Positions 2,186 to 58,578 of a DNA stretch of 64,000 bases are shown in pieces. Position 1 is the stretch's first letter; the number at the start of each line of letters is the position of its first letter. The DNA comes from Hymenobacter wooponensis (lineage in GTDB: Bacteria; Bacteroidota; Bacteroidia; Cytophagales; Hymenobacteraceae). The stretch covers positions 186,001 to 250,000 of the forward strand of contig NZ_SRKZ01000006.1 of NCBI RefSeq assembly GCF_004745865.1. Reading direction: 5' to 3'. The translations under genes were made by a program, and so were the position numbers. The notes beneath the pieces were generated by a model, which ran no database searches, was not told the origin of the DNA, and saw only the letters and a program-made list of their open reading frames with translations.

Positions 2186-2193
2186 CAAAAGTA
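2186..2193 (-). promoter_or_regulatory. Candidate -7 element for the atp operon
   Basis: On the minus strand this reads TACTTTTG, matching the Bacteroidota -7 consensus TAnnTTTG, 24 nt before the atpZ start codon. No convincing -33 TTG was seen at the usual distance, so the call rests on the -7 box and its position. Confidence 0.45.
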
Positions 2194-2356
2194 CGAGGAT
2201 GCGCGTAGGTAGTTGGCTACCCTGACCTAGGCCACTGCCAGAACCCGAAAAAGCTGGGAATCTGCGGCTAACGATGGTCAAAAATTAATGCCGTAATTTT
2301 ACCCGTAGTGGCGCGTTACAGGAAAGAGTGCCTTTGCCCCGAACGAACTGGGGCAG

Positions 2357-11018: not shown

Positions 11019-11065
11019 ACCAGGGTAATCAAAAAAACGTAGCGGTTAGTTCAGATCAATAACGC

Positions 11066-12646: not shown

Positions 12647-12705
12647 CTTGTCTTACCTATCTATATGGGGTGAACTAAACCTGAAGTTGTCAAGCAAGAC
12701 TAGCC

Positions 12706-13515: not shown

Positions 13516-13636
13516 GTTAGTAAGAAATTAAAAAAGAGAAGTTGGTGAGTTGATTGACTAAGAAGAAAAATGCAGAAGGTGTAAGTAGGGGGTCGTTAGG
13601 TTAAGAAACGAAGCTCAAGGACTTAGAAAGCAGAGC

Positions 13637-14656: not shown

Positions 14657-14718
14657 GTGAGGAAGAGAAAAAGACTTTTCAGGCGGCGATACCCAAAGAT
14701 TACAATTTTGTGAGTCGG

Positions 14719-14749
14719 CAAATCTAGCTATTTGTACGTTCGTACGCAA
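14719..14749 (-). promoter_or_regulatory. Promoter of gldKLMN
   Basis: On the minus strand, TTG (14749-14747), a 20-nt spacer, then TAGATTTG (14726-14719), matching the Bacteroidota -33/-7 pattern TTG-N19-21-TAnnTTTG. The start codon is 63 nt downstream. It implies gldKLMN can be transcribed independently of porP. Confidence 0.65.
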
Positions 14750-14895
14750 GCCTTTTGCTCAATGCATTCCGAATGTTTTTAAACCGAAGCACGCGTCGGT
14801 TAAACGATGGAAGGCAAGGAGTTAGTACAGGGAAACCAAAATTCATAGATAACACGTACTCAGGGCGCCCATAAACCCTGTTTTTAGCTTTTTAT

Positions 14896-15888: not shown

Positions 15889-15941
15889 AGAAGCGGCTGA
15901 CCTCGCGTAAGTTACACAGGATTCAGGAAGACGGCAGCTTC

Positions 15942-15971
15942 CAAATGTATACAAAAAACCTCTGTAACCAA
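15942..15971 (-). promoter_or_regulatory. Promoter of porP
   Basis: On the minus strand TTG (15971-15969), exactly 19 nt, then TACATTTG (15949-15942), a full match to the Bacteroidota consensus. The chosen porP ATG is 53 nt downstream, which supports the shorter start. Confidence 0.75.
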
Positions 15972-29977: not shown

Positions 29978-30017
29978 CATCCTTCCTCCACTTACATCAT
30001 CCTCTCTCCTCCTTTTT

Positions 30018-30590
30018 ATGCAGAACCCAGTTTTCCTTCGCCCTACCCTCCTAGCCTTGCTAGCTTCCGCCACCGTTTTCTCGGCTTGTAAGAAAGACAA
30101 CGACGACCCTACCCCCGACGAAGACAACGAGCAAATCACGACGGTAACCTACACGCTGACTCCTCAGGGCGGTGGAACGCCCCTCTCTATTCAGTACCGC
30201 GACCCAGATGGCGACGGCGGTCAGCCGGGCGTTATTACGCCTGCCACGCTAGTGCTAGCACCCAACACCACCTATACCGGTACCCTGGCCCTGCTTGACG
30301 AGACCAAAACCCCAGCGGAAAACACTACGGCTGAGATTCTGGAGAAAGGTGATGAGCACCTGTTCGTCTTTACTCCGAGCAACGTCAACCTGACCGTTAC
30401 GGCCACCGACAAAGACAAGAACAACCTGCCAATAGGCCTTGCCACCCAAGCGGTTACAGGTGCAGCCAATGCTAGCGGCACCACCGGCAGCCTGAAAGTG
30501 GTACTGCGTCACCAGCCCAACTCCAAAAATGGCACGGCCACTCCCGGCAGCACCGATGTGGAAGTTGATTTCCCCACGGCAGTACGCTAA
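30018..30590 (+). CDS. Lipoprotein partner of the TonB receptor
   Basis: A 190-residue lipoprotein (FSACKK) with an acidic tract DNDDPTPDEDNE after the lipidated Cys. A beta-sandwich-like domain follows with TYTLTPQGGGTPLSIQYRD, DPDGDGG, APNTTYTGTLALLDE and VVLRHQP. This family recurs beside metal-type TonB receptors in Bacteroidota; its biochemical role is not established. The 40-nt spacing indicates cotranscription with the receptor. A terminator at 30779 ends this unit. Confidence 0.7.
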   Translation: MQNPVFLRPTLLALLASATVFSACKKDNDDPTPDEDNEQITTVTYTLTPQGGGTPLSIQYRDPDGDGGQPGVITPATLVLAPNTTYTGTLALLDETKTPAENTTAEILEKGDEHLFVFTPSNVNLTVTATDKDKNNLPIGLATQAVTGAANASGTTGSLKVVLRHQPNSKNGTATPGSTDVEVDFPTAVR

Positions 30591-30778
30591 CTGTAAATGA
30601 GTGAGTAGGTAATGAGTGAAGTGGCCTAGAGGGTCCCTACAGCATATGGCCGCGAATTGAAGCCGTGTCTCAACCTTGCTCATTCCTTTCTCTCTCAACT
30701 GCATTAGAAGAGGCTGGCTGCAAACAGCTTCTTCACCAAATTTTTCTCCCTGTTTGGTTGTGGAGAATTTTGGGGAAG

Positions 30779-30812
30779 GCACCGGCCAATGGCTGGTGCT
30801 TTCTTTTGTTTT
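30779..30812 (+). terminator. Terminator between the two receptor units
   Basis: A 9-bp stem GCACCGGCC/GGCTGGTGC (one G-U pair) with an AAT loop, followed by a T-rich run TTTCTTTTGTTTTG. It lies inside the upstream part of the longest receptor frame, which argues for the later start at 30876. Confidence 0.7.
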
Positions 30813-30875
30813 GTGCACTCGTGCAGCCTTTCTACCTCATCCTTCGTTCATTGGCTTCCGCGTAAATTGCCTTCT

Positions 30876-40584: not shown

Positions 40585-41271
40585 CTACATGCGGCCCACC
40601 TTCGGAATCACCTGAATCAGGAAGCGCTTATTATCCCCCTCGCGGCGGCCCTGGTAACGCCCAGTGCCATAAAACCCACTGCCGCCAATAATCAGTTCAA
40701 TGCTCCGGTCTTGCCCGAAGTTGATACCGTTCTGCTCCCAGAAGTTCAGCAGGTTGAGAGCCCGACGGTAGCTGAGTTGGTAAGTAGTCTGCTCCTCGGC
40801 CTTGTTGCGCGGGTCGCCCTGGGGGTAGCGGGCGGCCATACCTTCCACAATTACGAGGTAGCGCACGGGCTGGTCAGTTTTGATATTTTTCAGAACCGAG
40901 CGCAACGTGCGACCGGCTTGCAGCAAGGCCGGCTTGTAGGCCTCCTGTATCTCGTCGCGGCCCGCTTTGAACTGCACCGGTACCAGCAACTCGTGCCGCT
41001 CATTGGCGGGGTCGTACTTAAAGTATCTGCCCTCCAATTTCTGCAGAGAGCGGCGAATTTTGGTAATCTGCTCCAGCTCAATGGCCTTAGCTTTTAGCTC
41101 GCCGTTAGCCTGTTGCAGCTCTCCTTCCCGGTCTTTGAACAGCTTAAAACTGTACACAAACAGCACCAGCATCACCACGAACAAGGACGTCATCAGGTCT
41201 ACGTAGCTGGGCCAGAAGAAGTCGTTGCTTTGGCGTTTGTTGGAGGTGGTGTTGTTCATGGATATGGGCAA
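40585..41271 (-). CDS. MotB/OmpA/ZorB-like motor partner
   Basis: A 228-residue protein with one N-terminal transmembrane helix beginning FFWPSYVDLMTSLFVVMLV. Asp25 sits where MotB and ZorB carry the ion-conducting aspartate. A coiled segment follows (EGELQQANGELKAKAIELEQ), then an OmpA-C-like periplasmic domain (VQFKAGRDEI, YQLSYRRALNLLNFW, EGDNKRFLIQVIPK) predicted to hold peptidoglycan. An ATG four codons later (MNNTT) is an alternative start. It is last in the cluster, 6 nt after a small exported-protein gene. Pairing with the MotA-like protein upstream predicts an ion-driven stator or rotor unit. Confidence 0.82.
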   Translation of the reverse strand: MPISMNNTTSNKRQSNDFFWPSYVDLMTSLFVVMLVLFVYSFKLFKDREGELQQANGELKAKAIELEQITKIRRSLQKLEGRYFKYDPANERHELLVPVQFKAGRDEIQEAYKPALLQAGRTLRSVLKNIKTDQPVRYLVIVEGMAARYPQGDPRNKAEEQTTYQLSYRRALNLLNFWEQNGINFGQDRSIELIIGGSGFYGTGRYQGRREGDNKRFLIQVIPKVGRM

Positions 41272-41277: not shown

Positions 41278-41757
41278 CTAAAACTTATCGCTGGATGTTT
41301 TTCTATTGTTGAGCTTGATCAACTTAATGACTTGCGTATTCAATGAAACACTTGTGTCATAAGTGACACACTTATCGCTGTTAAGAGTCTTTGCATAGTA
41401 GTTGTTAACGAGTTGTTTATGTTCTAATTGACTTTTGCCATCTCGGGCATACTGTAATTCATCTCCAACCTTAATAGCAACCCGATACCTGGCGGAGGTA
41501 TGATCAGTTGGTCCTTGACCGAAATAGTATACGCCATTTCCTCCACATACTTCTAGCGTGGTTAAAGTAGTATCGGCGGCAAAAATGTACGCTGTCCTAT
41601 CAAGTTCTGGTAGAATCACTAGTCGCTTGATGAGCTCCTCGCTGTATAACTTGCTATACTGAACAGGAATTTTAATCCTAACTATTTCGCTTTGCTGAGC
41701 ATATCCAGCAAATGAAAAGCTCAGGCACAATCCTAAACCTACTTGAAACCTCTTCAT
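41278..41757 (-). CDS. Small exported protein inside the motor operon
   Basis: A 159-residue protein from the ATG at 41757 with a signal peptide (LCLSFSFAGYAQQ) and a beta-rich mature part containing LEVCGGNGVYYFGQGP and a second Cys in KCVTYDT. It lies 13 nt after the MotA-like gene and 6 nt before the MotB-like gene, an intimate position for a motor accessory. Its codons are clearly more AT-rich than either neighbour's, hinting at later insertion. No family recognised. Confidence 0.65.
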   Translation of the reverse strand: MKRFQVGLGLCLSFSFAGYAQQSEIVRIKIPVQYSKLYSEELIKRLVILPELDRTAYIFAADTTLTTLEVCGGNGVYYFGQGPTDHTSARYRVAIKVGDELQYARDGKSQLEHKQLVNNYYAKTLNSDKCVTYDTSVSLNTQVIKLIKLNNRKTSSDKF

Positions 41758-41770
41758 AAGCGCTGAGAAA

Positions 41771-43231
41771 TTATTGCGGCCGTACGCCTCCAAAAAGCTT
41801 ATCCATAAAGCGCTGGAAACGGTTCTTGGAAGTCGCTTTCACCAGCACTGTGTTCAGGTTGGAAAGCTCACTCAATAGCTTCGCCTGAATCTGTGAGTCT
41901 AGCTCTACTTTGCGCATCAGCTCGCGCTGGGTGGCCGTTACGTCGCGGCTGAGGTCAGCTTGCTGCACGTTGAGGTTCTGGAAAGGCTCCAGCTGTTTCA
42001 GCAGCTTATCGAAGATGTTGTCGGCGTTGAGGCGTTCGAAGTACTGCTGCCACTTCTCGTAGGCCAGTTGAGCCTGCCGCTCATTGTAGGCCAATCGTTG
42101 CGTCATCACGTCGGCCAGGGATACGCCGGCTTGGTCAATGTGCTGCTCGGCCCGGTCGCGGAGGTTGCGCAGCTCTACCTGGTGCTTCTGGAAGAAATCC
42201 AGCATGAGCTGCACTGAGTTGTTGTTGCCGCCAATGTACTGGCCTAGGTCGTTGATGCCCTTCTCAAAACCACGCAAACGGTCGAGAATACTGTTCACGC
42301 TTTCCGCCGATTGATAGCCTTTGGCTAGCATATCGTTGAGCTTCTGCTGGTAGCCTGTAAAGGCCGCAAACATCTCCGCCGACTCCCGCACTTTCTCAAA
42401 CACCAGAATATTAGCAGCGGCCATCTTATCGTAGCCAATCGTATCGAGCCGCTCCAGGAAGTCGCTCTGTACCTTGATGTTCTGGGTGACTTTGTCCATC
42501 AAGGGGTTGAACAACTCCACTTGGCCTACAAACTGCTGATTAAACGCATCCAACACCGACTTTAGGTTGGTGAGCGAGCTGGCCATATCGGCGTGCAGTA
42601 CCGGTAGCAGGCGCGCCTGCAGGAAGGTGTAGTACTGGTTCTGCTTGCGGTCGAGCTGCTCCCGGGCCTGGCGCAGTACTCCGTTACCGAGCAACGTCAG
42701 CAACAGGCCTACAAAGGAGCCTGTCATGGCAATCAGTACACCGGTCAGGAACGGCGTGAGGGCATTCTCATCCGACACGCCATTGCGGGCAATGCCCAAT
42801 AGGCCTAGAATTACACCTAGGAAAGTGCCCAACAGGCCTAGATAAAGCGGCGTGGCTACGTTGGCCTGCACGCTGTTGTCCAGCACTTCACTTTGCCGCT
42901 CCGATATATCCTTTAGAATCCCAAAGTCGGCGGCGGCACCTTTGTTGTGGCGTAGGTAGTCGTTGGTGTCAAGCAGGATTTCCTGGAACTCCGGCGAGGC
43001 ATTTTCAGCCTTGATGAGGTTGGAGGCAAAGGCATCAGCAGGCGCATCGGCGGCATAATCGGGCAAGTCGCGGCCGTCGGGCAGCACAATACGCTGCTCC
43101 ACACGCAACGCCTCCTTCGAGGGATACAGTTGGGCCAGCCGCTGGGCATTGGCCCGCGTCCGCAGAAACGTGCGGATCTGCAGGCCTACCACGATGGCCA
43201 CTACAGCAACTTCAAGAATGATTTCAAGCAT
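41771..43231 (-). CDS. MotA/TolQ/ExbB/ZorA-like proton-channel protein with long tail
   Basis: A 486-residue inner-membrane protein from the ATG at 43231. It has a helix at residues 2-18, then a pair at about 127-147 (PLYLGLLGTFLGVILGLLGI) and 160-186 (LTPFLTGVLIAMTGSFVGLL) that carry the MotA/ExbB signature. A cytoplasmic tail of about 300 residues follows, rich in helical heptads. The long tail is like ZorA of the Zorya system rather than flagellar MotA or ExbB. It is 8 nt after the small 43240 gene, in the same operon as the MotB-like partner. Confidence 0.82.
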   Translation of the reverse strand: MLEIILEVAVVAIVVGLQIRTFLRTRANAQRLAQLYPSKEALRVEQRIVLPDGRDLPDYAADAPADAFASNLIKAENASPEFQEILLDTNDYLRHNKGAAADFGILKDISERQSEVLDNSVQANVATPLYLGLLGTFLGVILGLLGIARNGVSDENALTPFLTGVLIAMTGSFVGLLLTLLGNGVLRQAREQLDRKQNQYYTFLQARLLPVLHADMASSLTNLKSVLDAFNQQFVGQVELFNPLMDKVTQNIKVQSDFLERLDTIGYDKMAAANILVFEKVRESAEMFAAFTGYQQKLNDMLAKGYQSAESVNSILDRLRGFEKGINDLGQYIGGNNNSVQLMLDFFQKHQVELRNLRDRAEQHIDQAGVSLADVMTQRLAYNERQAQLAYEKWQQYFERLNADNIFDKLLKQLEPFQNLNVQQADLSRDVTATQRELMRKVELDSQIQAKLLSELSNLNTVLVKATSKNRFQRFMDKLFGGVRPQ

Positions 43232-43239
43232 GGCTAAAA

Positions 43240-43647
43240 CTACGCAACTTGGCTGCGCTCGAGCCATTCGTTAGGCAAAAAGCTATTGTAGGGCAGAGCA
43301 AGCCGACTTCCTGAGCGAGAACCACAGGCTTTTTCCCGAATCCTTCGCTTCTGATAAAGATGAATGCTAAACAGATAAATATTACGCCGTCGATCTAAAT
43401 CTAGAACAGCTTTTTGCAAGAGCGAATCGCCCATTAGGGCATCTATGTCTGGCGTACTCAAACTAGCTAGCTTGAACTGCTCATTGTAAAATGGTAATAG
43501 CTGCCTTTCATACCAGTCTCGCGGCAGCACTTGATGCTGCCTTACCAACCACATACAACAAACTAGACAAGAACGAAATGAACTAAGCCGCCATGCCAAT
43601 GGCAAATCAGTTCGCCTTGCACGGTTCAGCTGTGCCCGATAACTCAT
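43240..43647 (-). CDS. Small unknown protein translationally coupled in the motor operon
   Basis: A 135-residue basic protein with one hydrophobic stretch near residues 20-36 (WRLSSFRSCLVCCMWLV) and a long polar C-terminus. Its ATG overlaps the stop of the upstream 495-residue gene in an ATGA, and its stop lies 8 nt before the MotA-like start. Such tight packing supports a real, coupled gene. Its base composition is more AT-rich than the flanks. No family recognised. Confidence 0.55.
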   Translation of the reverse strand: MSYRAQLNRARRTDLPLAWRLSSFRSCLVCCMWLVRQHQVLPRDWYERQLLPFYNEQFKLASLSTPDIDALMGDSLLQKAVLDLDRRRNIYLFSIHLYQKRRIREKACGSRSGSRLALPYNSFLPNEWLERSQVA

Positions 43648-45131
43648 TCAAATCGAATGGAGGCCTTCTGCTCGATCTGCCAGTTGCCGGCCACCTTGCG
43701 TAGCACCCCTTCTTCCTCCGTTACAATGCGCGTGACCGGGCCACTGGGCTGCTGGTACTTGCAGGCTTCGCGCAGGGAGTACTGGGCACTCTGGATGGCG
43801 TAGGCGTGTACTGCCGGGTTAGTGGTTACGCTGAACGTAGCCAGTTCCGGCCACTGCGGATCAAGGTGAATTTCATAGATGCTGTCGTGCTGAGGTTCAT
43901 CGCTGAAGTCGTACTCGTTGAAAGTACCATTCACGGGTACCTTCACGTAGCGCGTTTGCTGAACCGCAGCAGCCGGAGCAGCGGGGGCCGCCGGAGTGGG
44001 CAACTGCACCGGCGGTACTAGGCTCTCAAATTCGTCGCGGGGAGAAGCCGTAGGTGCACCAGCCGGTACTACCGGGGGCATGGAAGGTACTTCGGTCATC
44101 GGCACAGGCGCTGAGTAAACCGAGGCTACTGGCGCAGCCGGCTGGGGTTCAACACGTGGCGCTGGCGCAGGAGCTACCGGAGTGGGTTGTGGCGCCACCT
44201 TTTCTGGAGTAGAAGCTACTATGGCAGCGGGTGCCATGGCAGCCAGTTGGCCTCGTTGCTTTTTCACTTCTTCCTCCACGCGTTGCTGCACCAGCTTTTC
44301 TACCTCACGCTGCTGAGCAGGAGTCAGACGGTCAGCAGCCGGCGCAACACCTGGCCTAGGGCCACCGGCCGGAGCATTTTGCAGAGCCAGAATCTCATCA
44401 CGACGCTTGTCAATACGGGCGCCCAACTCTTTCTGGAAGCCATCAATATTGCGGCGCAGTAAGTAATAGAGCACTAAGCTTAGCAGCGACATAATCAGCG
44501 CCAAGGGCCCGAAGAACTTATTCATTAAGCTCTCCCCTGCCCCACTGCTGGTAGCACTGGCCGTGGTGGAGGCTACACCCGCTTCTGCTAAACCAGCATC
44601 CTGCGAGTCTGCCGTCATGGTATTGTCGGCAGCTGTAGTGGTATCTACCTGCTCCGTAGCCGCCTCAGCATTGCTTAGGTCGCCGATTGGCGTACCGTTT
44701 TGCACATAGTTGTTCAGGGCCGTTTCGAGGGTAGCCAGTCGCTGCATCCGGGCCGGGTTGGCACGACGGGCAGGCGAAGCCTTTAGCCGATTGATGATTT
44801 CCGTCGTCAGTTTCTGCAGCCGCGATGAGTTAGAGCCGAGGCCCTTATACATCGTGCCCTTGCCTTCCAGTGGCTGATATAAGGCGCTATACACTCGCTG
44901 GCTGTCGGCCTTGATGCTGGCTTCAAACGCATTTAGCGAGCTACCGCACTGCAACTGACTTTTAAGGTTGGAGCGCCCGTTGTCGTCGTACACATAGCGA
45001 GCCGTGGCACACCATATTTGCACCTTCTGTTCATCCAGCGTGGGCTGGCCTAGCGGCGTTTGGGCACGAGCGCCCGCTGCCAAAAGCAGTAGGCCAGTAA
45101 GCAAAGAAGCAGCGCGACGGGAAAGGATCAT
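43644..45131 (-). CDS. Single-pass envelope protein of the motor/cytoskeleton cluster
   Basis: A 495-residue protein with a signal peptide (1-23), a helical periplasmic domain with a Cys pair (Cys41, Cys62), and a Ser/Ala/Thr linker. One transmembrane helix (206-225) is followed by a charged coiled segment (NIDGFQKELGARIDKRRDEI), a Pro/Ala-rich linker and a beta-type C-terminal domain (from about residue 385: RYVKVPVNGTFNEYDFSD ... WQIEQKASIRFE). Topology would connect the periplasm to cytoplasmic filaments. It lies between the actin-like gene and the motor genes. No known family recognised. Confidence 0.7.
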   Translation of the reverse strand: MILSRRAASLLTGLLLLAAGARAQTPLGQPTLDEQKVQIWCATARYVYDDNGRSNLKSQLQCGSSLNAFEASIKADSQRVYSALYQPLEGKGTMYKGLGSNSSRLQKLTTEIINRLKASPARRANPARMQRLATLETALNNYVQNGTPIGDLSNAEAATEQVDTTTAADNTMTADSQDAGLAEAGVASTTASATSSGAGESLMNKFFGPLALIMSLLSLVLYYLLRRNIDGFQKELGARIDKRRDEILALQNAPAGGPRPGVAPAADRLTPAQQREVEKLVQQRVEEEVKKQRGQLAAMAPAAIVASTPEKVAPQPTPVAPAPAPRVEPQPAAPVASVYSAPVPMTEVPSMPPVVPAGAPTASPRDEFESLVPPVQLPTPAAPAAPAAAVQQTRYVKVPVNGTFNEYDFSDEPQHDSIYEIHLDPQWPELATFSVTTNPAVHAYAIQSAQYSLREACKYQQPSGPVTRIVTEEEGVLRKVAGNWQIEQKASIRFE

Positions 45132-45232: not shown

Positions 45233-48200
45233 CTACGACTGTAGCTCGCGGCTCAGGTTGTAGAGCGCCTGTTTCAGTGGCAGGAAGAACAGCGTTTCAG
45301 GCAGGGTTTCATCACTGGAAAGCTGGCGCTGGAACTGGTGCAGGCCTAGGCTTAAGCTATCTTCGATTTCGCGCTGCAGAATGTCCTTCACGCGCTGACG
45401 GTCTACGTCTACACCTACTTCGCGCAGGTAAGGCGCCACCTCGTCGCCTTCGAGTACGAGGGTGAGGTAGTTGCGCACGTTTTCCAGTACCGTGTCTTTC
45501 AGCGTGGCATCTACTTGGTTCAGTTTCAGACGCTGCTGGTTAAGCTCGGTACCATCTACAGCGCCGCTGTACTTCACGGGCTTGATGCTGTCGTAGTCCG
45601 ACGTGTTGGTCTTTTCCTCGAAGAGCACGCCGCCGTTGGTGGTAGCTTCTTTGGGGTTGTCGGCCAGGATGACGCGGAAGTTGTGCGGTGGCTCGGTGCC
45701 GGTTACAGCATGGAAGATGGCTTTGGTAATCTTCTCGATAGCTACCAGGGAGCTGCCACCGGCCAACAGACGAAGGTAGAGGCTGCCTTTGCCGGAGAAG
45801 CACAGGTAGCGCGGCGTTTTTAGGCCGAGGTGCTTCGTTAGTTGCGCCGTGTGGTAGATGATGCTAGTGTAGTGCAGGTAGAATAGCACTCGCAGCTGCC
45901 GCCCTTTTCCAAGGCCTAGGGCCTGGGTGAAGCGCAAGGCATCATCGTATTTAAACAGCAAGCTGGTCACGTCAGCAGAGCCAAAATCGGTGTTGCTGAG
46001 TGCGGCGCGCAGGTAGCCTTTGTACTCTTGGTTTTGCTCGGAGTCGGGCAGGCTTTCGGCGTGGCCTACGCCGAGGCGGAGCAAGCCGTTTTGCTTGGGC
46101 GCTCCTTGCACGCGGGCGTAACCATCACCCCACAGGTCGTCGCCGGCGAAGCGGAACGAGGTGCTGTAGGCCGGTTTTTGGTCGGCGAAGAGCAGCAAGT
46201 CGGTGGTACCGCCGCCGATGTCGATGTTCACCACGTTTTCGTCGCGGTTGGGCACTACCTGGTTGGTGGCCGTGAGGTAATAGTACGGCGCCACCGATTC
46301 GGTGAGGCAAATAGTGGGGCGACGAGCCTTGAACACCTGCTGGAACGACTCATCCCAGACCTGCTGGAACTGGTTGCGCAGGAAGCCATCAAAGCTCAGC
46401 GGGGCAAACCATACCACGCGGGTATCTTCCAGAATACCGCCGTGCAGCGCCGCTTTGTGGCGAAGCAATAGCAGAATTTCCTTGAAGAAGGCCTCAATGC
46501 GCGACACGCCCTGCGGGTCCAGCTCCGCCGACCACTTCAGGTTGGTGATGAAGCGGTTCTGTGGCAGCTCCGAAGCGTTTTCGGTGTTGATGCTGAAACC
46601 GATGTTGATGTTGCTCAACACCTTGGCGGGCTCATTGGCAAACGACGTGGTTTCGCAGACCGCCGTCCGAATCGGAAATTCATATACTGAGCCGCCTTCG
46701 CCCACAAACGAGGGCACAAACTCCCGATTCTGCAGAGTGGCAATGTAGGTCCAGATCTGGCCGGCACCCGTGCGGTAGCGTTGCGCGGCCGAGAGGCCCG
46801 CATCGGCTACCGGCGCGTGCAGCCACTCCACCTGCACATCGGCCTCGCCAATAGTCAGCGGGCGCGGGTGCGCGGTGGGCGAATCGGCGTAGGCAATGTG
46901 GGTGTTGGTGGTACCAAAGTCTACCGCGAAGGTGAAGCGACGGGTACCACGGTCCAGTTCGCGCCAGCGTGGCACGAACAGGCCGCGGGCCGGCTCAGCG
47001 CCAATGGTGGCGGGCGGGCAGGTCAACTCCACTAGGTCGAAGTGGGTGCCGGTAACCTCATAATAGGTGCTGCCTGCGGTGGCCATGCTCTTCTGAGTGC
47101 GCTCGTAGCGAGTGGCGCGGCGGGCGGCACCCTGCTCCGTGATTCGCTCCCCATTCACGAAGAACTGCAGGTCGTAGCGGCGGCTGAGCATGGTGGGCGA
47201 GTTGTCGGCATCCACTAGCATCACCTTGTAGAGGTCGTTGTACTCGGGCTGGTAGCGCACCTTGTAGAAGGGGAACACGCCCACGCCTACAGTAGCCTTT
47301 ACAATGCGGCCCTTCTCCAGAATCTCGCGGCCCTGGGCATCCTTCGGGTTCTGCGGATTGGTGTAGTAGCTACGCTCAAACGTAATGAAGCGCCCCGCCT
47401 GCACCGGCACCCGCAGCTGCACGCGCACGTGGCTCAGATCAATAGTGAAGGTGAGCAGCTCGGCCAGCTCATTCTCGGTGAAGTACTCGAAGAACGCCTG
47501 CTTCAGCGGCAGCAGGTAGGGGAACCGGGCGCGGCCCTGACCGTCAGCGCCGTACTGGAACGTGACTTTACCCGTGTGGAAACGCTGGGTATTCAACTCA
47601 TAGGGCAGTTCCACCAGCGAGTCTTCCAGCAAGTCGCCTACCGTCAGATAAGGGTACTTGAAGCCCTTGCCAGGCAGCACGCGGCTTTCCAGGGCTACTT
47701 CGTCGTAATACGGTACCGGCGTACGGTCGTCCCAGGGCTGGCCGTTGAGGTAATTCGCACCAGGCATCGTCAGGTTGGGGCGTAGCACCAATGGCCTAGG
47801 CCGACCGGCAATGGCTTCGCGCGTGGGCTGAATGAACAGGTCGGAGCTGGTTACGGCCGATTGATCGGCGCGGCCGGGCAGCGGCACGCCTTTCACGCTC
47901 ACTAGGTTGCCGTGCACGTCTACCAGCGCGGGGTAGCGGGCCGCAAACTGCTGCGCGCTCCGGTCGCCCTGCATCTGGAGCTGGTTGATTTTGCTACGGT
48001 CGAGGCCGGCATACACACTGCCAGCAAACTCGCGGCGCTGCAGCTGCGGGTAGGCCAGGAACAGCTCGTACACGAACTCCCGGAACTGCGGGTCGCGGTC
48101 TTCGAGCAGCACGGTTTGCTTGTCGAAATAGTGGCCGCGTGCCTGGGGGCGCTCCAGGTCTAGGGGCTTCACCTCGGGGCCCGTGAACAGGATCGTCAAC

Positions 48201-48700
48201 GGTGAGGTGCCGCCCAGCAGGCGCGTACCGCCCGCCAGCTCCGGCGACTCATAGTACACCAAATACATGTCGGTGAAGTCGCGGAAACGCTCGTCCTGCA
48301 TGTACAGCTGCAGGGTTTCGCCCAGCAGGCGCGTGCCCTCCTCCTGCCGCATCCGGCGGATTTCGGCCTCGGCATTCCAGCGGCGCAGCGTGATTTTGCG
48401 GCCAGCCTGGGTGTAGAGGTGGTAGTTGTAGAGTAGCTCCAGCAGATCCCAGAAGTGGGTCGTCAGCTCGTGGTACACCGAGCCGGGGTTACGCTGCCCT
48501 TCGCGGGCCAGGAAGTCGAAAGCCGTCTCAAACAGGTGCATCCGCGCAAAAGGCGTCGGGATGCTTACGGCCAAGTTACGGGACTTGCCCCCTGCCGGGT
48601 CCGTTACGGTATTGATTTCGGTGCTCGTTACCGGCGCCGTTTTCTGCCAGCCTTGAACCTGCTGGGAGCCATTATTATGTAAGCGAAGGACTTTGGCCAT
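45233..48700 (-). CDS. Giant actin/Hsp70-like ATPase
   Basis: A 1155-residue cytosolic protein. The actin-fold ATPase signature is in the second half: phosphate-1 loop FAVDFGTTNTHIAYADS (about residue 592), phosphate-2 VNIDIGGGTTDLLLFADQ (about 822) and an adenosine-type LCFSGKGSLYLRLLAGG (about 962). About 590 residues without a recognised domain precede the ATPase, and this N-terminal size is unusual. The overall plan recalls the SrfB family of large actin-like virulence-associated proteins, but I cannot confirm that. It lies between a tubulin-like gene and an envelope protein. Role inferred: nucleotide-driven assembly or chaperone-like scaffold. Confidence 0.8.
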   Translation of the reverse strand: MAKVLRLHNNGSQQVQGWQKTAPVTSTEINTVTDPAGGKSRNLAVSIPTPFARMHLFETAFDFLAREGQRNPGSVYHELTTHFWDLLELLYNYHLYTQAGRKITLRRWNAEAEIRRMRQEEGTRLLGETLQLYMQDERFRDFTDMYLVYYESPELAGGTRLLGGTSPLTILFTGPEVKPLDLERPQARGHYFDKQTVLLEDRDPQFREFVYELFLAYPQLQRREFAGSVYAGLDRSKINQLQMQGDRSAQQFAARYPALVDVHGNLVSVKGVPLPGRADQSAVTSSDLFIQPTREAIAGRPRPLVLRPNLTMPGANYLNGQPWDDRTPVPYYDEVALESRVLPGKGFKYPYLTVGDLLEDSLVELPYELNTQRFHTGKVTFQYGADGQGRARFPYLLPLKQAFFEYFTENELAELLTFTIDLSHVRVQLRVPVQAGRFITFERSYYTNPQNPKDAQGREILEKGRIVKATVGVGVFPFYKVRYQPEYNDLYKVMLVDADNSPTMLSRRYDLQFFVNGERITEQGAARRATRYERTQKSMATAGSTYYEVTGTHFDLVELTCPPATIGAEPARGLFVPRWRELDRGTRRFTFAVDFGTTNTHIAYADSPTAHPRPLTIGEADVQVEWLHAPVADAGLSAAQRYRTGAGQIWTYIATLQNREFVPSFVGEGGSVYEFPIRTAVCETTSFANEPAKVLSNINIGFSINTENASELPQNRFITNLKWSAELDPQGVSRIEAFFKEILLLLRHKAALHGGILEDTRVVWFAPLSFDGFLRNQFQQVWDESFQQVFKARRPTICLTESVAPYYYLTATNQVVPNRDENVVNIDIGGGTTDLLLFADQKPAYSTSFRFAGDDLWGDGYARVQGAPKQNGLLRLGVGHAESLPDSEQNQEYKGYLRAALSNTDFGSADVTSLLFKYDDALRFTQALGLGKGRQLRVLFYLHYTSIIYHTAQLTKHLGLKTPRYLCFSGKGSLYLRLLAGGSSLVAIEKITKAIFHAVTGTEPPHNFRVILADNPKEATTNGGVLFEEKTNTSDYDSIKPVKYSGAVDGTELNQQRLKLNQVDATLKDTVLENVRNYLTLVLEGDEVAPYLREVGVDVDRQRVKDILQREIEDSLSLGLHQFQRQLSSDETLPETLFFLPLKQALYNLSRELQS

Positions 48701-48704: not shown

Positions 48705-48837
48705 GAACCCCACCCCCCGGCCCCCTCCCCTTGGGGAGAGGGAGAGCCAGACGAAGGTCATTCGGGGTGACTTTTCTTTTAGACTAGAAACTAGAACTAG
48801 AGTCCCTCTCCTGTGGGGAGAGGTTGGGGTGGGGTTA
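48705..48837. repeat. REP-like imperfect palindrome in the cluster
   Basis: The 134-nt spacer between the tubulin-like and actin-like genes is an imperfect large inverted repeat. Its left arm contains ACCCCACCCC and CCCCTCCCC-TTGGGGAGAGGGA. Its right arm has TCCCTCTCC-TGTGGGGAGAGG and GGGGTGGGGTT. A small GTCA...TGAC stem and iterated CTAGAAA/CTAGAACTAGAG lie between. The pattern is like REP elements spread in Bacteroidota genomes. Confidence 0.6.
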
Positions 48838-50283
48838 TACCACCTTCACCTTCTCTGCAAACGCCTTATCTGTCACATCATAGAACAATTCCAGCATCTT
48901 GCGGAAGCTGTCGGGTTCTTGGATGGACTTCTCGGTTTTGTTGAGGTTGTCGAGGAGGTAGTTGTGGCTGAGACCTTTGTTGAAGAAGTCGTTCCACTTC
49001 TTTTCCACGGGCTTGCCGAGGATCATAGCGTTGAAATCATCGGTCTGGAGGTCGAAGGGGCGGAAGGAACGACGGTTCTGGGCCAGTTCCTGCAGCCACT
49101 GATCTACGCCCGAGTCCTGACTGTGCAGGAAGGTGTTTAGCTCCCGGAAGATGGGCTCGTTGCGCATGGCGTAGTCCAGCTTCAGGTTGTCGGCGTAGGG
49201 TGCCTTGTCGGTGGGCAGGTGCTGCTTGTGGTAGCGCGTGAAGTACAGGAACTGCGTGAGCTGCTTGGCAATGATTTCACGCGACTCATCGGGCAGGTGG
49301 CTGAACTGAATTTCCGGCGCGTCGGCTTGAAGGCCATACTCGTGGAAGTGCGGGCCACCAGTGCGCAGCTCGGCGGGCGAGTAGCGCATGAAGTCCACGA
49401 TGCTTAGGGCCGCCAGCAGCTCAATTACGTGAGCCTTGTTCTTCTGCTGGGTGCCGCCGGGCTGGTTTTCGTAGGGCGTATCGGGCGTGTCGGCGAGGTA
49501 GTACAGCGCGTCGAGGCCCTGGAGGTTGTGCTCGTAGTAGCTGAGCGCCGCCTTGGTTTTCGTCAGGAAGTTGTTGGAGTCAATGACGGCGTTGTCCTCG
49601 CTCTGCAGAGCGAAGTAGGGCATCACCGTCACGGCGCCGGTTGGTGCATCACGCAGATAGCGGGCATTGCTGAGGCGCGTGTTGGTATCCTTCAGGTTCT
49701 TGAGCATGAGCGGGAAGCCCGCGGCGCCTGTACCGCCGAAGATGCTCGACACGAAGAATACCCGGTCGCCGTCCTGGAAGTTATCGGCGAAAAACCGCAT
49801 TTCGGGGCTTTCCACTAGCTTGTTCAGCACAATGCTACCCACGTTCGGGGAACCGCGGAAGCCAATGGTTAGCGGGCTTTCTAGGTTATCCTGCGTGAAG
49901 AGCAAATCCACAAGGCCCTTGGAGTCAACCGACAGGCCATCGTAGCTCAGGTACTGCCGGAAGCTCTGGTTGATGCCGCCGAAGTCGAAGATAAAGGTAT
50001 CCTTCACCGAGCCGTTTACATCTTGCGAAATACCGCTCAAGGTGCTAATATCAGTCTTGAAAAAGCCTTCTTCACGAGGACCGAGGCGCTTATAAATCTG
50101 CTGGTAGCTCTGCAACAGCTGCACCGTGCGGTTCATGTCGCCGTTGTGGGCGTCGGGGTCGATGATAATGGGTACCACTCGGTCGCAGTTGGGCAGGTCA
50201 ACGCCCGCGGCCAGCAGCATAGTGAGCGAGCGAATCACGCGGGAGCCCGTGCCGCCAATACCGAATAAAAAGAGTTTAGCCAT
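48835..50283 (-). CDS. Tubulin/FtsZ-like GTPase (Tubulin_2-like)
   Basis: A 482-residue cytosolic protein starting at the ATG at 50283. It opens with a Rossmann-type glycine loop LFLFGIGGTGSRV (residues 4-16), equivalent to the FtsZ N-terminus. It carries SSIFGGTGAAGFPLM (183-189 GGTGAAG), matching the tubulin signature GGGTGTG with one Gly replaced. The C-terminal third is helical and charged. This fits prokaryotic tubulin-like proteins outside cell division. Genes for an actin-like ATPase and a vWA lipoprotein flank it. GTP binding is inferred. Confidence 0.82.
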   Translation of the reverse strand: MAKLFLFGIGGTGSRVIRSLTMLLAAGVDLPNCDRVVPIIIDPDAHNGDMNRTVQLLQSYQQIYKRLGPREEGFFKTDISTLSGISQDVNGSVKDTFIFDFGGINQSFRQYLSYDGLSVDSKGLVDLLFTQDNLESPLTIGFRGSPNVGSIVLNKLVESPEMRFFADNFQDGDRVFFVSSIFGGTGAAGFPLMLKNLKDTNTRLSNARYLRDAPTGAVTVMPYFALQSEDNAVIDSNNFLTKTKAALSYYEHNLQGLDALYYLADTPDTPYENQPGGTQQKNKAHVIELLAALSIVDFMRYSPAELRTGGPHFHEYGLQADAPEIQFSHLPDESREIIAKQLTQFLYFTRYHKQHLPTDKAPYADNLKLDYAMRNEPIFRELNTFLHSQDSGVDQWLQELAQNRRSFRPFDLQTDDFNAMILGKPVEKKWNDFFNKGLSHNYLLDNLNKTEKSIQEPDSFRKMLELFYDVTDKAFAEKVKVV

Positions 50284-50390: not shown

Positions 50391-50783
50391 CTAAAAGGGC
50401 GTAGTGCTCGCGTTAGTGGAGCCTTTGCGCAGAATCAGAGAGAAAATAAAGAACCAGAACAGGCCTAGAATGGCGTTCCAAGTGGCCAGCCAGTAGATGT
50501 AGCTGTGGTCTGTAACCTGCTGGGCGTGGGCCTGACTAACTGCCAAGCCGAAGGCAATTAGGCCGTTGATAACCAGGAAAATTGCCCAGTGCCGCCCCTT
50601 GTTAAAGGTAGCCACGCCCATCATCCGATTGATGACATAGTAGAATATCACCACTAGCGCCAGCGAAATGCCAATGTTCAGCAGTCCGATGTTGGGGAAA
50701 ATTACGTCGCGGTATACGGGTGTGTCGGCGGGCGGCTGAGGGGCACCGATGAGTTCGTAAATGGAGCGGAATAGTGCTTTCAT
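50391..50783 (-). CDS. Three-helix inner-membrane protein of the cluster
   Basis: A 130-residue protein from the ATG at 50783 with a short N-terminal soluble part. Three transmembrane helices follow (IGLLNIGISLALVVIFYYVI, WAIFLVINGLIAFGLAV, YIYWLATWNAILGLFWFFIF). It lies between the vWA lipoprotein and the tubulin-like gene on the same strand, so it may anchor the filament proteins to the membrane. No family recognised. The longer frame to 50861 adds a Cys-rich stretch of no coding character. Confidence 0.65.
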   Translation of the reverse strand: MKALFRSIYELIGAPQPPADTPVYRDVIFPNIGLLNIGISLALVVIFYYVINRMMGVATFNKGRHWAIFLVINGLIAFGLAVSQAHAQQVTDHSYIYWLATWNAILGLFWFFIFSLILRKGSTNASTTPF

Positions 50784-50960
50784 GGAAGGAAGTAGGACCA
50801 ACGAGCCGTTGGCAATTCGTTGAACGATAAGGGCGGAACGAAATTGTAAGCACAGCCACAACTCAGTAGCTGAAGCATTCGGCTTCGTTAATGAACGAAA
50901 ACCATTCCAATTGCGCTAAAATTCAGGCCCTGATAAAGTCCTGGGCAGGCCACTGAACAT

Positions 50961-52325
50961 CTACTCAGCTGGCTGTAAGGTCAATGGCACTTCGAAAATG
51001 GGCTTTTTTTCTGCGCCGCCTTGCGCTTCTAAACCATCCAGCAGCGAGCTTAATGCGAAGGTTTTGGGAGCGGGTGTGGCGTCGTTCTTGGTGGTCCACT
51101 GGGCTACCCAGGCGGGACGCTGGTCTTGCAGGCGCAACACAAGTGGCCTAGCGGCCTTTGGCTGCTTGGTGAGGCGCACTTTGGCAAAGTGGGTGAACTT
51201 GCTTTCGGGGCCGCTACTGGCGCGGTTCTGGTCGGTAGCCGCAAACACATCGAGTAGCTTAGCGTCCGTATCCACGCCTTGCAACTTGAGGTTCTGCTTG
51301 AGGTAGGCGGCATCTTGGTACTGGCCGGGCAACTGGCCTAGGTCTAGGCCTACTACAAACTCTATGGGTTGCTGGGGTGAGGCTTCCGACACAGCTATTA
51401 CACGGTACGACTCGGCGTTGCGCTTGCTGGCACCGGCGTCACCGTAGTACCAACTCCCTTTGTTCTGAAATTTGCTGAGCAGCGAGTAATTAGGCTGCGG
51501 ATATGTGACGCCGAAGTGAGCTTGCTTAGCAGGCTGCTGCTCTAACAAGGCCGCGTCGAACTGCCGCACGGCACCGGCGGGACCCACCACCCAGATGTAG
51601 TACGGAATTTCGGTGTCGCAGCAATTGGTTTTCTTACCTGAGGCTACCAGCGCTGGGTAGTAGGTGCCCCGGAAATCGGAGGTGTACCCATACACCGACA
51701 CGGCCAGATCCGACTTTTCGCCGCTTTGCGAAAGCGCATCGGCAATATCGGTCTTGATGTAAGGAATGGCGCCCGCGTTTTTCGGCGAGTAGATGAAGTC
51801 TGAAATCAGAATGCTTACGGTGCCGGGCCGGTAGTAATTCGTCATCAGCGTATCGAGCACCGAGGGTATATCAGTACTCTTGGCGGGCTGCTGAATGCCA
51901 CTGCGCACCGTTCCGGAAATGGCCTGGTACGAGTCCTTATAGGGCCGCTCTTTGATGCGGTAGAAGGTTTTCTGCCGGGCGGCTGAGGTGCGGTTTACCT
52001 CCGAGAGAAACTGCGCTACATGTTGCTGAAACTTAGTATTCTCACCACCAGCACCGGTTTTAGGCATAAAGCCTTCCATCGACCCCGACACTTCCAGAAA
52101 CACGTTCACGGCCTGTAAGGGTTGCGTGGTGGCAGCCTCAGCGGTTGGCTCTGGCGTTCTGACCGGTACAGCCCCCGGCACTTCGGTCGGTGGTACGTCG
52201 GAAGGCGTTTTGGTGGCTGTGCCCTCCTCCGTTTTCATATCGGAGCGGGAATAGCAGCCGGGTAACAGTAGCAGAGACAGGCCTAGAGCAGGCAGCAAGC
52301 GGGGAAAGGAAGAGAGGTAGCGCAT
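50961..52325 (-). CDS. vWA-like lipoprotein, first gene of the cluster
   Basis: A 454-residue lipoprotein (lipobox LLPGC, Cys24) with a Pro/Thr-rich spacer to about residue 70. A von Willebrand-A-type domain follows, with NVFLEVSGSMEGF (Glu78-x-Ser80-x-Ser82 in place of the MIDAS Asp-x-Ser-x-Ser) and VSILISDFIYSPKN as a second metal-site strand. Such domains bind protein partners through a divalent metal. The start is the ATG at 52325. It begins the co-directional run that ends with the MotB-like gene. The Glu-for-Asp change may alter metal binding. Confidence 0.75.
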   Translation of the reverse strand: MRYLSSFPRLLPALGLSLLLLPGCYSRSDMKTEEGTATKTPSDVPPTEVPGAVPVRTPEPTAEAATTQPLQAVNVFLEVSGSMEGFMPKTGAGGENTKFQQHVAQFLSEVNRTSAARQKTFYRIKERPYKDSYQAISGTVRSGIQQPAKSTDIPSVLDTLMTNYYRPGTVSILISDFIYSPKNAGAIPYIKTDIADALSQSGEKSDLAVSVYGYTSDFRGTYYPALVASGKKTNCCDTEIPYYIWVVGPAGAVRQFDAALLEQQPAKQAHFGVTYPQPNYSLLSKFQNKGSWYYGDAGASKRNAESYRVIAVSEASPQQPIEFVVGLDLGQLPGQYQDAAYLKQNLKLQGVDTDAKLLDVFAATDQNRASSGPESKFTHFAKVRLTKQPKAARPLVLRLQDQRPAWVAQWTTKNDATPAPKTFALSSLLDGLEAQGGAEKKPIFEVPLTLQPAE

Positions 52326-52438
52326 TGGGCTAAAGTAACGACAATCTGCCCTCCTCGGATACATGTGGCGGTTCAGAAGTTACAGCCCATCCGTTTCTCT
52401 TTTCTGAAGTAGTGCTACTATCCGTCGGATAAAGAGAG

Positions 52439-53164
52439 TTACGTACCCATTTCCACGTCGTCCCATGCATACTGGCGGTTGTAAATCCACTCCAGCGCTT
52501 TCCGCCGCTCATATACTAGGGATTCCGAAACGGTGGCCGCCCGGCCGTGCATCCGTTCATCTACACAGTACCAGTGCAGCCGGTAATAAAAGTCCAGCAT
52601 CCGGTACAGCTCAGCTGCTGGTCTTAGGGCGTTAAGGGTAGCAAGCTTTTCATTGCTCTGCCCGCGCTCTAGGTTTGGTAGCAACGACGCCATGTTATCG
52701 CCGCACCACTTACCGGGGTCCAGATCAGGCACCATACGCGTTGCCCACATCATAGCCCACAAGCTTTCCAGGTTCCAGCGCAAGTTTGCTAACTCCTGCT
52801 CCGTCAGATGCTCATCATCCTTTGCTAATATGGCCGCCTCTTCCGGCGAAAGGTGGCCTAGCAGGTTTTCCTTCGCGAGCCATGCGCTTATGACTGCAAC
52901 TGGCGCCTGAAAGGAAATATTGATAAGTGCATTTACTACGCTCATGCGGCCACGAACATCCACTACCTCGCGTAGTTCTGGTGCATCTAGTAATGGCAGC
53001 CAGTCGCAGATACGCCCACCAAGTGCCAGTACCTTCGCTTCAGACTCCTTTTTAACACGCTGACGGAACTGCTCAGTTATATCTTCATTAGGCAACGAAT
53101 GAGGTTGCTGCTCTGCTGGTGTGCTTGCAACTAGGCCCAGCAGTTTCTTCAGAGAATGGAGCAT
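52439..53164 (-). CDS. DUF4272 family protein
   Basis: A 241-residue cytosolic protein whose C-terminal part matches DUF4272. It shows AVISAWLAKENL, LSPEEAAIL, NLRWNLESLWAMMWA, LYRMLDFYYRLHWYCVD and VYERRKALEWIY, ending WDDVE. The family is of unknown function. It is 8 nt downstream of the nucleotidyltransferase gene and 113 nt upstream of the vWA gene, so it may or may not belong to the motor cluster. Confidence 0.82.
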   Translation of the reverse strand: MLHSLKKLLGLVASTPAEQQPHSLPNEDITEQFRQRVKKESEAKVLALGGRICDWLPLLDAPELREVVDVRGRMSVVNALINISFQAPVAVISAWLAKENLLGHLSPEEAAILAKDDEHLTEQELANLRWNLESLWAMMWATRMVPDLDPGKWCGDNMASLLPNLERGQSNEKLATLNALRPAAELYRMLDFYYRLHWYCVDERMHGRAATVSESLVYERRKALEWIYNRQYAWDDVEMGT

Positions 53165-57575: not shown

Positions 57576-58544
57576 CTACCAGAACCGGTTGGTACATACC
57601 ACCTGTGCTTTTTTCTTGAGGCGCAGGCCAAGCAGTATCTCGTGGCTGCCGCCATGGTAGCCGGCCAGTTGGGAAAGACCTGCATCATAAGAATAGCCCA
57701 CCGTGAGCTGCTCATAGCTGAGGCCCACCATGCCCACGAACGAGTCGAAGGCGCGCCACGAGACGCCAGCCCAGAGCAGATCCTGGTACTTGAGCTTGGC
57801 GTTTAGGTCAACTGAAAGTGGAGCCGGTTGCACTGCCTTCAACAGCACCGACGGTACCAACGACCAATCATCGCTAAGCGGCACCCGCACCCCACCCGTG
57901 GCGAAGTAATGGCGCTTCAAGGAGTTGCCCTCACCTGCATCAAGCGAGTTGGGCCCGTAGGAGAAGTCAAGCTTATTGGCCAGCAGTTGCGCGCCCGATA
58001 CCCCAAAGTAAAAATCGGAGCTGTATATCCACAGGCCTACCGACCCATCAAACACCCGCGAGGCGGCACTAGCTGCTACAGTGGTGGGGTCTAAGAACTG
58101 CAGTTTCTGCCCATCAACGGCAAACTGCTGCATGCCCGCCGACACGCCCAATGCCGCTCGCAGGTTGGGCCGCAGCACCAGGTTATACGCGTAAGAAAGA
58201 TAGGCCCCGGTCCGGCTGGTGGGCCCAGTTTCGTCCCTGTATACTAGGCCACCTATAGCATGAAATGGGCGACGCCGGTCGCGCAGGGTGCGCTTACTGG
58301 TGGTGCGCCACTTGCCCAGCGAGGAGCTGGCACTGGCATAGTATGTCTTAGGAGCCCCTTCTAGGCCAGTCCACTGGGTGCGGTAGCTGAACTTAACGTC
58401 AATGTAATCTTCAACCCCAGTTGCGCCGGGGTTGAGGATGTAATTGTTGTTCATGTATTGGCTGTACTGCGCCTGCTGCTGGGCCAGGGCCGGCACGGCG
58501 GCTACTAGCAGCGGGAGCAGCAGTAGAGTTAAAGCTCTTTTCAT
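57576..58544 (-). CDS. PorP/SprF family T9SS outer-membrane protein, adhesin partner
   Basis: A 322-residue beta-barrel from the ATG at 58544 with signal peptide (AVPALAQ) and the family start QAQYSQYMNNNYILNPGATG. Later strands include RTQWTGLEGAPKTYYASA. The family's SprF members are needed to export the adjacent large adhesins bearing type B C-terminal domains. This gene lies directly downstream of such an adhesin gene, separated only by a 28-bp palindrome. It is distinct from the porP copy near gldK. Confidence 0.9.
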   Translation of the reverse strand: MKRALTLLLLPLLVAAVPALAQQQAQYSQYMNNNYILNPGATGVEDYIDVKFSYRTQWTGLEGAPKTYYASASSSLGKWRTTSKRTLRDRRRPFHAIGGLVYRDETGPTSRTGAYLSYAYNLVLRPNLRAALGVSAGMQQFAVDGQKLQFLDPTTVAASAASRVFDGSVGLWIYSSDFYFGVSGAQLLANKLDFSYGPNSLDAGEGNSLKRHYFATGGVRVPLSDDWSLVPSVLLKAVQPAPLSVDLNAKLKYQDLLWAGVSWRAFDSFVGMVGLSYEQLTVGYSYDAGLSQLAGYHGGSHEILLGLRLKKKAQVVCTNRFW

Positions 58545-58578
58545 ATCAGTAGTTGCCTGAATGCTGATCAAGAAGATA

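Follow-up and report, generated by a model that had tools for sequence, protein, structure and literature searches.

A compact tubulin-like protein with a predicted actin/Hsp70-fold partner in an envelope-type operon of Hymenobacteraceae

FtsZl1 proteins (Makarova and Koonin, 2010; taken here as Pfam Tubulin_2, PF13809) were described from sequence and genomic context alone. According to that paper (PMC2875224), they carry an extended coiled coil and an alpha-helical C-terminal domain (the type protein has 1051 amino acids, aa), are predicted to be the centre of a membrane-remodelling system with VWA, OmpA and GTPase proteins, and are proposed to polymerise by a novel route; a P-loop GTPase is a frequent, not universal, neighbour, and an OmpA-domain neighbour occurs in several genomes. 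Tubulin homologues also feature in an overview of GTPase-centric conflict systems (Kaur et al., 2020; PMC7159879). It describes a class in which GTPases are combined with an HSP70 protein and homologues of tubulin, and GAP1-N2 systems with vWA proteins and membrane segments, tubulin and HSP70 being separate themes of the latter. Here we analyse a tubulin-like protein of 482 aa encoded on the minus strand (50283..48835) of a 64,000-nucleotide stretch of Hymenobacter wooponensis DNA (the window), which lies within one contig (NZ_SRKZ01000006.1) of the 6.0-Mb genome. The gene is part of a minus-strand operon, running from 52364 down to 40585, of seven parts and two extra open reading frames (ORFs), of 135 and 171 aa, that few loci share.

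Comparison of sequences, structure models and gene neighbourhoods establishes, at that level, the families of the parts, a fixed gene order and a motor pair added in Hymenobacteraceae. The constant core would comprise a VWA-like lipoprotein, a small membrane protein, the tubulin-like protein and an actin/Hsp70-like ATPase. Searches of open-licence PMC papers for an operon that unites tubulin and actin relatives with a MotA/ExbB-type motor listed none that describes one in its title or abstract.

The tubulin-like protein resembles FtsZl1 (PMC2875224) in its nucleotide-binding domain of tubulin/FtsZ kind at the N-terminus, with loops of the GxGGTG and SSxxGGTG types, in a T6-H7-T7 part that is unrecognisable, and in an OmpA-domain neighbour; its likely VWA-like neighbour would be a further likeness. 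The OmpA-domain feature is found in Hymenobacteraceae through a MotB/ZorB-like LSxxRA motif and is absent in distant members. In contrast to the ~1000–1200 aa and extended coiled coil of FtsZl1, proteins of the present, compact branch have ~465–600 aa, and no helix in the model of the window protein exceeds 23 residues. The P-loop GTPase partner of FtsZl1 is not in the operon, where the constant neighbour is instead the actin/Hsp70-fold ATPase; none of the nine operon ORFs has a Walker A motif, and Pfam and NCBIfam scans of them gave no GTPase family. Five strong Tubulin_2 proteins in a 296-genome sample of the phylum measure 982–1208 aa. A VWA-type motif protein is encoded at two of their loci. 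The other six operon parts were not found beside any of these five genes, and the tubulin profile of the compact branch picks up only one of the encoded proteins (E 7e-4).

With the conflict systems the operon shares tubulin-like, HSP70-fold and VWA-like parts. In PMC7159879, however, a TRAFAC GTPase is central, which we do not find in the operon, and tubulin and HSP70 are separate themes, whereas here the tubulin-like and actin/Hsp70-like genes adjoin throughout. Because that overview already has a class with both, a system that combines tubulin with a protein of HSP70 fold is no novelty by itself. Judged from the encoded proteins, what sets the operon apart from both kinds of system is the lack of a GTPase, the constant pair of a compact tubulin-like and a large actin/Hsp70-fold protein, and a ZorAB-like motor in one family. 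It appears to be a variant of the membrane systems built around Tubulin_2-type proteins, and may well form a category of its own.

Loops, fold and family of the tubulin-like protein

We compared homologues at 96 loci, the window's own (L016) included. At three of these (L037, L038, L051) the tubulin gene was missed in ORF picking and found in the locus search, and they stand outside the 93 loci counted below. The 93-locus counts are dominated by Hymenobacteraceae because, out of at least 563 contig stretches that encode a homologue, the 80 best were taken as genome-contig loci, and almost all of these come from that family. Six loci (L012, L014, L091, L093, L094, L096) lie on short or cut stretches, where the absence of a neighbour is uninformative.

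The initial annotation had placed a tubulin-like ORF with two glycine loops at 48835–50283. These coordinates are correct, on the minus strand; the start is the conserved ATG at 50283, beyond which the mechanical ORF reaches to 50352. Both loops are present: a T1-like loop, GIGGTGSR, spans residues 8–15, and a T4-like loop, SIFGGTGAAG, residues 180–189. The signature is altered, as had been noticed, but in two glycines rather than the one reported, the first being replaced by Phe and the last by Ala. Among the 93 homologues the second loop reads S[IV]FGGTGA in 92 and SIFGGTGS in one, and the classical GGGTG[S/T]G in none, so that the loop is there and the strict motif is not. The first loop is found in 92 of 93 as a loose xxGGxG and in 63 of 93 as the stricter G[IVL]GG[TSV]G. 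Invariant positions fall in both nucleotide loops and in the H7-like helix, whose Glu288 is kept in 17/17 diverse members. A check of the T7 catalytic loop, suggested in the annotation, gave a negative answer: from Glu288 to residue 335, the alignment of these 17 members (not a superposition) has no invariant D or E, the best acidic position being D297 (13/17). Because the T7 acid is not conserved, FtsZ-type filament turnover by the canonical route is not expected.

The structure model, built from an alignment of 41 relatives, has a mean pLDDT of 84.7 and a pTM of 0.89. Realignment against Foldseek's best PDB candidates gave a best Z of 16.1 over 218 aligned residues (rmsd 4.6 Å). Titles of 49 of the 50 realigned rows listed name FtsZ, CetZ, tubulin, microtubule or gamma-tubulin complexes, and the remaining row is 9w2m, a cytoplasmic lattice with the chain unnamed; no family outside the tubulin superfamily appears by title among these 50, which does not exclude one beyond them. 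Foldseek alone gave a weaker picture, with two PDB rows at E 0.001, TM-scores of 0.20–0.28 by query length and titles of the same kind in its 50 best rows. The superfamily call thus rests on the realignment, which re-ranks Foldseek's own candidates. The structure prediction and Foldseek search that the annotation had called for therefore bear out its tubulin-like identity, no fold unrelated to tubulin having emerged; on this fold comparison we reject a plain Rossmann dehydrogenase. The matched part of the model comprises approximately residues 1–346 of 482. Since the match stops there, the comparison shows no C-terminal domain of the FtsZ or tubulin kind, in keeping with the earlier remark that the C-terminal part is unlike FtsZ.

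Profile searches reached the superfamily at the edge of detection. In Pfam the window protein matched Tubulin (E 0.004) and Tubulin_2 (E 0.015), both under the cut-offs (15 bits for Tubulin_2, against a curated 27); at E 0.1 or better, 15 of the 17 diverse members matched Tubulin_2 (best 2e-10) and 13 Tubulin. One family member in the 296-genome sample (G284) passes the Tubulin_2 cut-off, with 28.4 bits. Searched singly against PDB sequences the protein had no match at E 10, and the 17-row profile reached CetZ and FtsZ weakly (best E 0.019). NCBIfam, PADLOC and PHROGs returned nothing for it, phage records gave no match, and in BFVD viral tubulins were among the best rows, none at E 0.001. By hhalign the branch aligned with the five presumed FtsZl1 proteins at E 9e-5 (probability 59%) and with 19 FtsZ sequences, the motif pick having found FtsZ in 19 of 24 loci, at E 8e-3 (probability 5%), both from small alignments and the former with one protein lacking its N-terminus. 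On the strength of the fold match, the Pfam hits of the members and the profile comparison, we place the predicted protein in the tubulin superfamily, nearest to the Tubulin_2 group.

FtsZ, CetZ and tubulin thus share with this protein the fold over residues ~1–346 and the glycine loops; they differ from it in the FGGTGAA signature, the missing conserved T7 acid and the C-terminal part, and the gene here is a non-division one. A second FtsZ-like protein with an actin-like neighbour could nevertheless be an accessory division or shape factor, the neighbour taking the part of FtsA or MreB. The best Pfam match of that neighbour is indeed FtsA (E 0.003), and it matches MreB in the PDB. Yet the genome's single canonical FtsZ (E 7e-50) is encoded on another contig, which upholds the annotation's non-FtsZ claim, and canonical FtsZ occurs in 25/25 sampled genomes of the phylum. 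Pfam and NCBIfam recognise no known division gene in the operon, as the annotation had also held of the neighbours, and 288 of the 296 phylum-sample genomes do without the tubulin-like gene. We consider a part in division highly improbable.

The ATPase partner and the distribution of the core

Directly downstream of the tubulin-like gene lies that of a predicted actin/Hsp70-superfamily ATPase of 1155 aa (45233..48700, minus strand), assigned by a 20-row profile, motifs and adjacency. The two genes adjoin in 92/93 loci under a gap limit of 1.5 kb (84/93 under a narrower limit), the last locus ending at a contig edge. A region of ~580 aa precedes the ATPase core, which carries AVDFGTTNT (phosphate 1), NIDIGGGTTD (phosphate 2) and an adenosine-type FSGKGS. 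The profile matched MreB (best E 1e-6), Hsp70 and FtsA in the PDB over parts of residues ~575–900. Pfam matches were to FtsA, EutA and Ppx-GppA, those of the window ATPase all under the cut-offs. Among 92 long members, 87 have the phosphate-1 and 90 the phosphate-2 pattern; the misses include the cyanobacterial loci L102–L104, L100 and the near-miss L097/L098.

The ATPase core of the partner matches both MreB and Hsp70, which opens a reading free of any cytoskeleton, in which a non-polymerising tubulin-like nucleotide switch and a chaperone-like ATPase would assemble or gate a complex of the VWA-like lipoprotein and the membrane protein. The lack of a conserved T7 acid, the end of the structural match near residue 346 and the occurrence of the core without a motor fit such a platform. 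The invariant nucleotide loops and H7-like helix, however, suit nucleotide-dependent polymerisation equally, and FtsZl1 proteins were suggested to polymerise by their novel route (PMC2875224). We regard a chaperone-type platform as doubtful.

The order lipoprotein, membrane protein, tubulin, actin recurs in Hymenobacteraceae, Cesiribacteraceae, Prevotella (L101) and Picosynechococcus-type plasmids (L103, L104). Loci L099 and L100, with 20–25% tubulin identity, keep it too, the first two genes there having been identified by eye. Gloeothece (L102) has the lipoprotein gene inverted. What follows the core varies. In Hymenobacteraceae it is the motor pair, and cyanobacteria and distant bacteria are without a motor. 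In the distant locus L015 (TerD genes at 1672–3563) a TerD protein downstream of the core is firm (E 3e-68, one protein tested). Small TerD-like proteins were picked by eye after the core in L014 (7877–8455), with a weak TerD-like PHROG match (E 4e-4) that is not Pfam TerD, and in L099 (15682–16863), with no Pfam TerD match. A link between Ter stress proteins and the tubulin-actin core is possible. A 49-row tree unites the 34 rows from Hymenobacteraceae, Cesiribacteraceae and Solirubrum in one starred group, which has the pair in all rows but L065 (MotA-like only) and L080 (cut). Long branches make the deeper forks of this tree unsure, and its labels give L012, L094 and L096 as motor-free although their stretches are short or cut, and L080 as motor-bearing although its stretch ends before the MotB-like position.

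A tubulin-like homologue is present in 120/120 genomes of the genus, 176/204 of the family and 8/296 of the phylum sample, the window's own genome included; the nearest named relatives are Hymenobacter species. Of the 28 family genomes with no match, the 20 listed all belong to other genera, and eight are unlisted. Compared with the copy in Hymenobacter fodinae, 95 codons differ, 94 silently and one with replacement. These frequencies, the at least 563 contig stretches and the excess of silent changes mark the gene as more than a chance reading frame. Across ten near relatives, median identity is 99% for the tubulin-like protein, 98% for the actin-like protein and 71–92% for the other five parts (the membrane protein being compared in seven of the ten and the MotB-like protein in nine). 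In seven more distant relatives it falls to 56% for tubulin, 48% for actin, 43–47% for the motor, 44% for the membrane protein, 35% for the lipoprotein and 28% for a 495-aa protein. The strong conservation of the tubulin- and actin-like proteins argues for a routine role in Hymenobacteraceae. The same sugar-nucleotide transferase gene lies upstream on the same strand, within ~5 kb, in 26/93 loci, and farther off on the opposite strand in three more.

The core occurs on cyanobacterial plasmids (L102, L103, L104) and, in L100, near a recombinase-like gene identified by eye, which suggests that it may also move on mobile elements. Two records of the viral collection IMG/VR (L097, L098) have the core together with the motor pair.

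The MotA/MotB-like pair and the work of the operon

The MotA/ExbB/ZorA-like membrane protein (41771..43267, minus strand, with a probable start near 43231) was assigned from MotA_ExbB and ZorA2 matches, alignment and hydropathy. It has three hydrophobic helices, a TPLYxGLLGTFxG channel motif and a coiled cytoplasmic tail of ~290 aa, and matches Pfam MotA_ExbB at E 3e-4 and PADLOC ZorA2 at E 2e-6. Of 79 MotA-like proteins 71 read GL[LV]GTF and six GLMGTF, five of the latter at loci with a MotB-like gene and one at a locus that is cut off. The MotB/ZorB-like protein (40585..41271, minus strand; PADLOC ZorB1, E 7e-14, and alignment) has one membrane helix with an Asp (WPSYVDLMT) and an OmpA-type domain with LSYxRA. 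Asp25 and SYxRA are invariant in nine aligned rows; the membrane Asp pattern occurs in 68/69 MotB-like proteins, the last having an over-long ORF, and LSxxRA in 68/69. At E 0.01 the MotB-like profile matched only three PDB sequences, ZorB-type chains of Zorya structures. Pfam returned nothing for the MotA- and MotB-like proteins of L043.

At two loci, L065 (16331–17770) and L095 (16367–17821), the MotA-like gene is kept and a six-frame search of the 21-kb stretches found no MotB-like gene. The channel motif is altered in both (GLAGSV and GLLAFI, respectively) and the tail intact, a pattern that, by sequence, is a natural loss of the motor. L036 and L071 likewise gave no MotB-like hit, on shorter stretches.

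The window encodes another 5:2 motor ~27 kb from the ZorAB-like pair, that of type IX secretion and gliding: GldK, GldL, GldM, GldN and a PorP/SprF-type protein (10074–15954, minus strand) all score over their NCBIfam cut-offs. A second PorP/SprF gene lies at 57576–58571.

The pair shares with Zorya ZorA/ZorB and other 5:2 motors a three-helix channel protein and a MotB-like partner that has a membrane Asp as well as an OmpA-type domain. The long coiled tail is common to Zorya, and the remaining shared features are general to other 5:2 motors. Unlike in Zorya, the scores stay far below the family cut-offs in NCBIfam (14.2 of 500 bits for ZorA and 25.3 of 400 for ZorB1), and tubulin- and actin-like proteins stand in place of ZorC, ZorD and ZorE.

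These likenesses raise the possibility of a Zorya-like or Ter-linked defence or stress system: the ZorAB-like pair would sense an envelope breach, such as phage DNA entry or membrane damage, and its tail would trigger assembly of a tubulin/actin effector that blocks the intruder. The closest PADLOC profile matches of the channel pair are ZorA and ZorB, found weakly in NCBIfam as well, and the three PDB matches, Zorya entries, point the same way; so do the weak match of the small membrane protein to a PADLOC 4TM 'Effector' family (E 0.01), the TerD protein of L015 and the copies that are plasmid-borne or near a recombinase-like gene. Zorya depends for its function on ion flow, on binding to peptidoglycan and on the tail of ZorA (PMC11890865), and Kaur et al. 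(PMC7159879) count tubulins, HSP70 and vWA proteins among the parts of conflict systems. However, PADLOC found no ZorC, ZorD or ZorE among the nine operon proteins, and the cut-offs for ZorA and ZorB are far from reached. Presence in every genome of the genus examined, few replacing changes and the recurrent transferase neighbour are not what a defence island, with its shuffled genes, usually shows, and the first two of these make housekeeping the likelier role. We think a defence system unlikely, though worth keeping in view.

The explanation we prefer, tentatively and with slightly less than even confidence, is an envelope machine in which the motor pair is coupled to a nucleotide-controlled tubulin-actin assembly, serving routine envelope maintenance rather than division. 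The annotation had likewise spoken of an envelope cluster, and the tubulin-like gene does sit among membrane and lipoprotein genes; these neighbours were named correctly, but the actin/Hsp70-fold ATPase and the MotA/MotB-like pair had been overlooked. The tubulin-like protein would belong to the cytoplasmic half of such a machine. Anchored to peptidoglycan, the motor pair may form an ion-driven motor of 5:2 stoichiometry whose MotA-like tail could transmit rotation, or else a conformational signal, to the cytoplasm, where the tubulin- and actin-like proteins would co-assemble under nucleotide control on the small membrane protein. The VWA-like lipoprotein might act as a sensor or an adhesive arm in the periplasm or at the outer membrane. 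The job of the whole would be to couple proton motive force and nucleotide state to the order of the wall and outer membrane.

Several observations count against an envelope machine of this kind. Since cyanobacterial and other distant members have no motor, it cannot be the general mechanism of the core. Outside Hymenobacteraceae the core is rare (the 8/296 of the phylum sample) and partly plasmid-borne, a distribution in line with an accessory or defensive function in those lineages. The MotA-like profile retrieves from the PDB coiled coils only and no motor chain, and the profile link to FtsZl1 stands at 59% probability. The VWA assignment of the lipoprotein is drawn from motifs and Z-scores below 7. 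GTP binding by the tubulin-like protein and ATP binding by its partner are predicted from sequence, and the phosphate-1 pattern was not found in cyanobacterial L102–L104 nor the phosphate-2 pattern in L100 and L102.

A bolder version seems to us improbable, if conceivable: a proton-driven rotary motor, seated in the inner membrane and anchored to peptidoglycan, would act directly on a mixed tubulin- and actin-like assembly in the cytoplasm, and the core would be an ancient, widely shared module with lineage-specific outputs (ion motor, TerD, others). If true, this would be a motor-plus-cytoskeleton device with relatives of both eukaryotic cytoskeletal families as constant partners. For FtsZl1-type proteins, the compact branch offers a tractable case: every searched genome of the genus, which can be cultured, has the operon, its tubulin-actin pair is fixed, and the motor can be recognised. 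Whether bacterial tubulin and actin relatives cooperate, and what role a ZorAB-like motor plays where no defence effector is known, can thereby be put to the test.

Other operon genes and the neighbourhood

The first gene of the operon encodes a lipoprotein of 467 aa (50961..52364, minus strand), its probable start being an internal Met near 52325. The protein has a signal peptide, a lipobox Cys37, a VWA-like domain (residues ~80–272) with E-V-S-G-S-M and a beta-sandwich (~288–467). Its sequence carries [DE]xSxS-like and later S/T-D motifs; in 13 diverse members down to cyanobacteria the Cys is invariant, as are the first-motif Ser and the second-motif Asp, and Pfam VWA hits none of the 13. 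In the realignment of the AlphaFold model (pLDDT 83.9), 32 of the 50 rows listed align with residues 80–272, most of them titled VWA, integrin I or related. The VWA-type rows score Z 5.5–6.6 and no chain reaches Z 8; the other 18 rows are antibody-like, matching the beta-sandwich. Foldseek itself gave mostly antibody-like rows, none at E 0.001. At these Z-scores a VWA identity is likely, not proven.

The small membrane protein (50391..50861, minus strand) has ~130 aa when read from a conserved Met near 50783, and hydropathy predicts two to three hydrophobic helices. A six-frame search found a homologue in 87/96 loci, and an ORF of the same kind was seen by eye in the same place in L014, L015, L099, L100 and L102–L104.

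Between the ATPase gene and the motor pair lies that of the 495-aa protein (43644..45131, minus strand; homologue in 82/96 loci), probably membrane-anchored, with a signal peptide (by eye), a hydrophobic helix at 202–220, a Pro-rich/coiled stretch and a conserved C-terminal domain. The 135-aa ORF between it and the MotA-like gene (43240..43647, minus strand) is of doubtful reality, being found in 1/96 loci, its own. The 171-aa protein (41278..41793, minus strand) is probably secreted, with a signal peptide by eye, and is lineage-specific (3/96 loci). Just upstream of the operon, a DUF4272 protein (E 1e-35) is encoded at 52439–53164 on the minus strand; its gene is probably not part of the operon, since it is found in 3/96 loci.

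Promoter and terminator scans of the operon gave no more than shuffled sequences did, and megablast against plasmids found no match to it. Its G+C content runs from 52 to 62% with no clear island step. Farther along the window, on the plus strand at 27569–33317, stand two TonB-dependent receptor genes (the second named by eye) with a small lipoprotein gene (by eye) between them, followed by one for a cation-diffusion-type transporter (by eye); the best match of the first receptor is of the heme type, under the cut-off.

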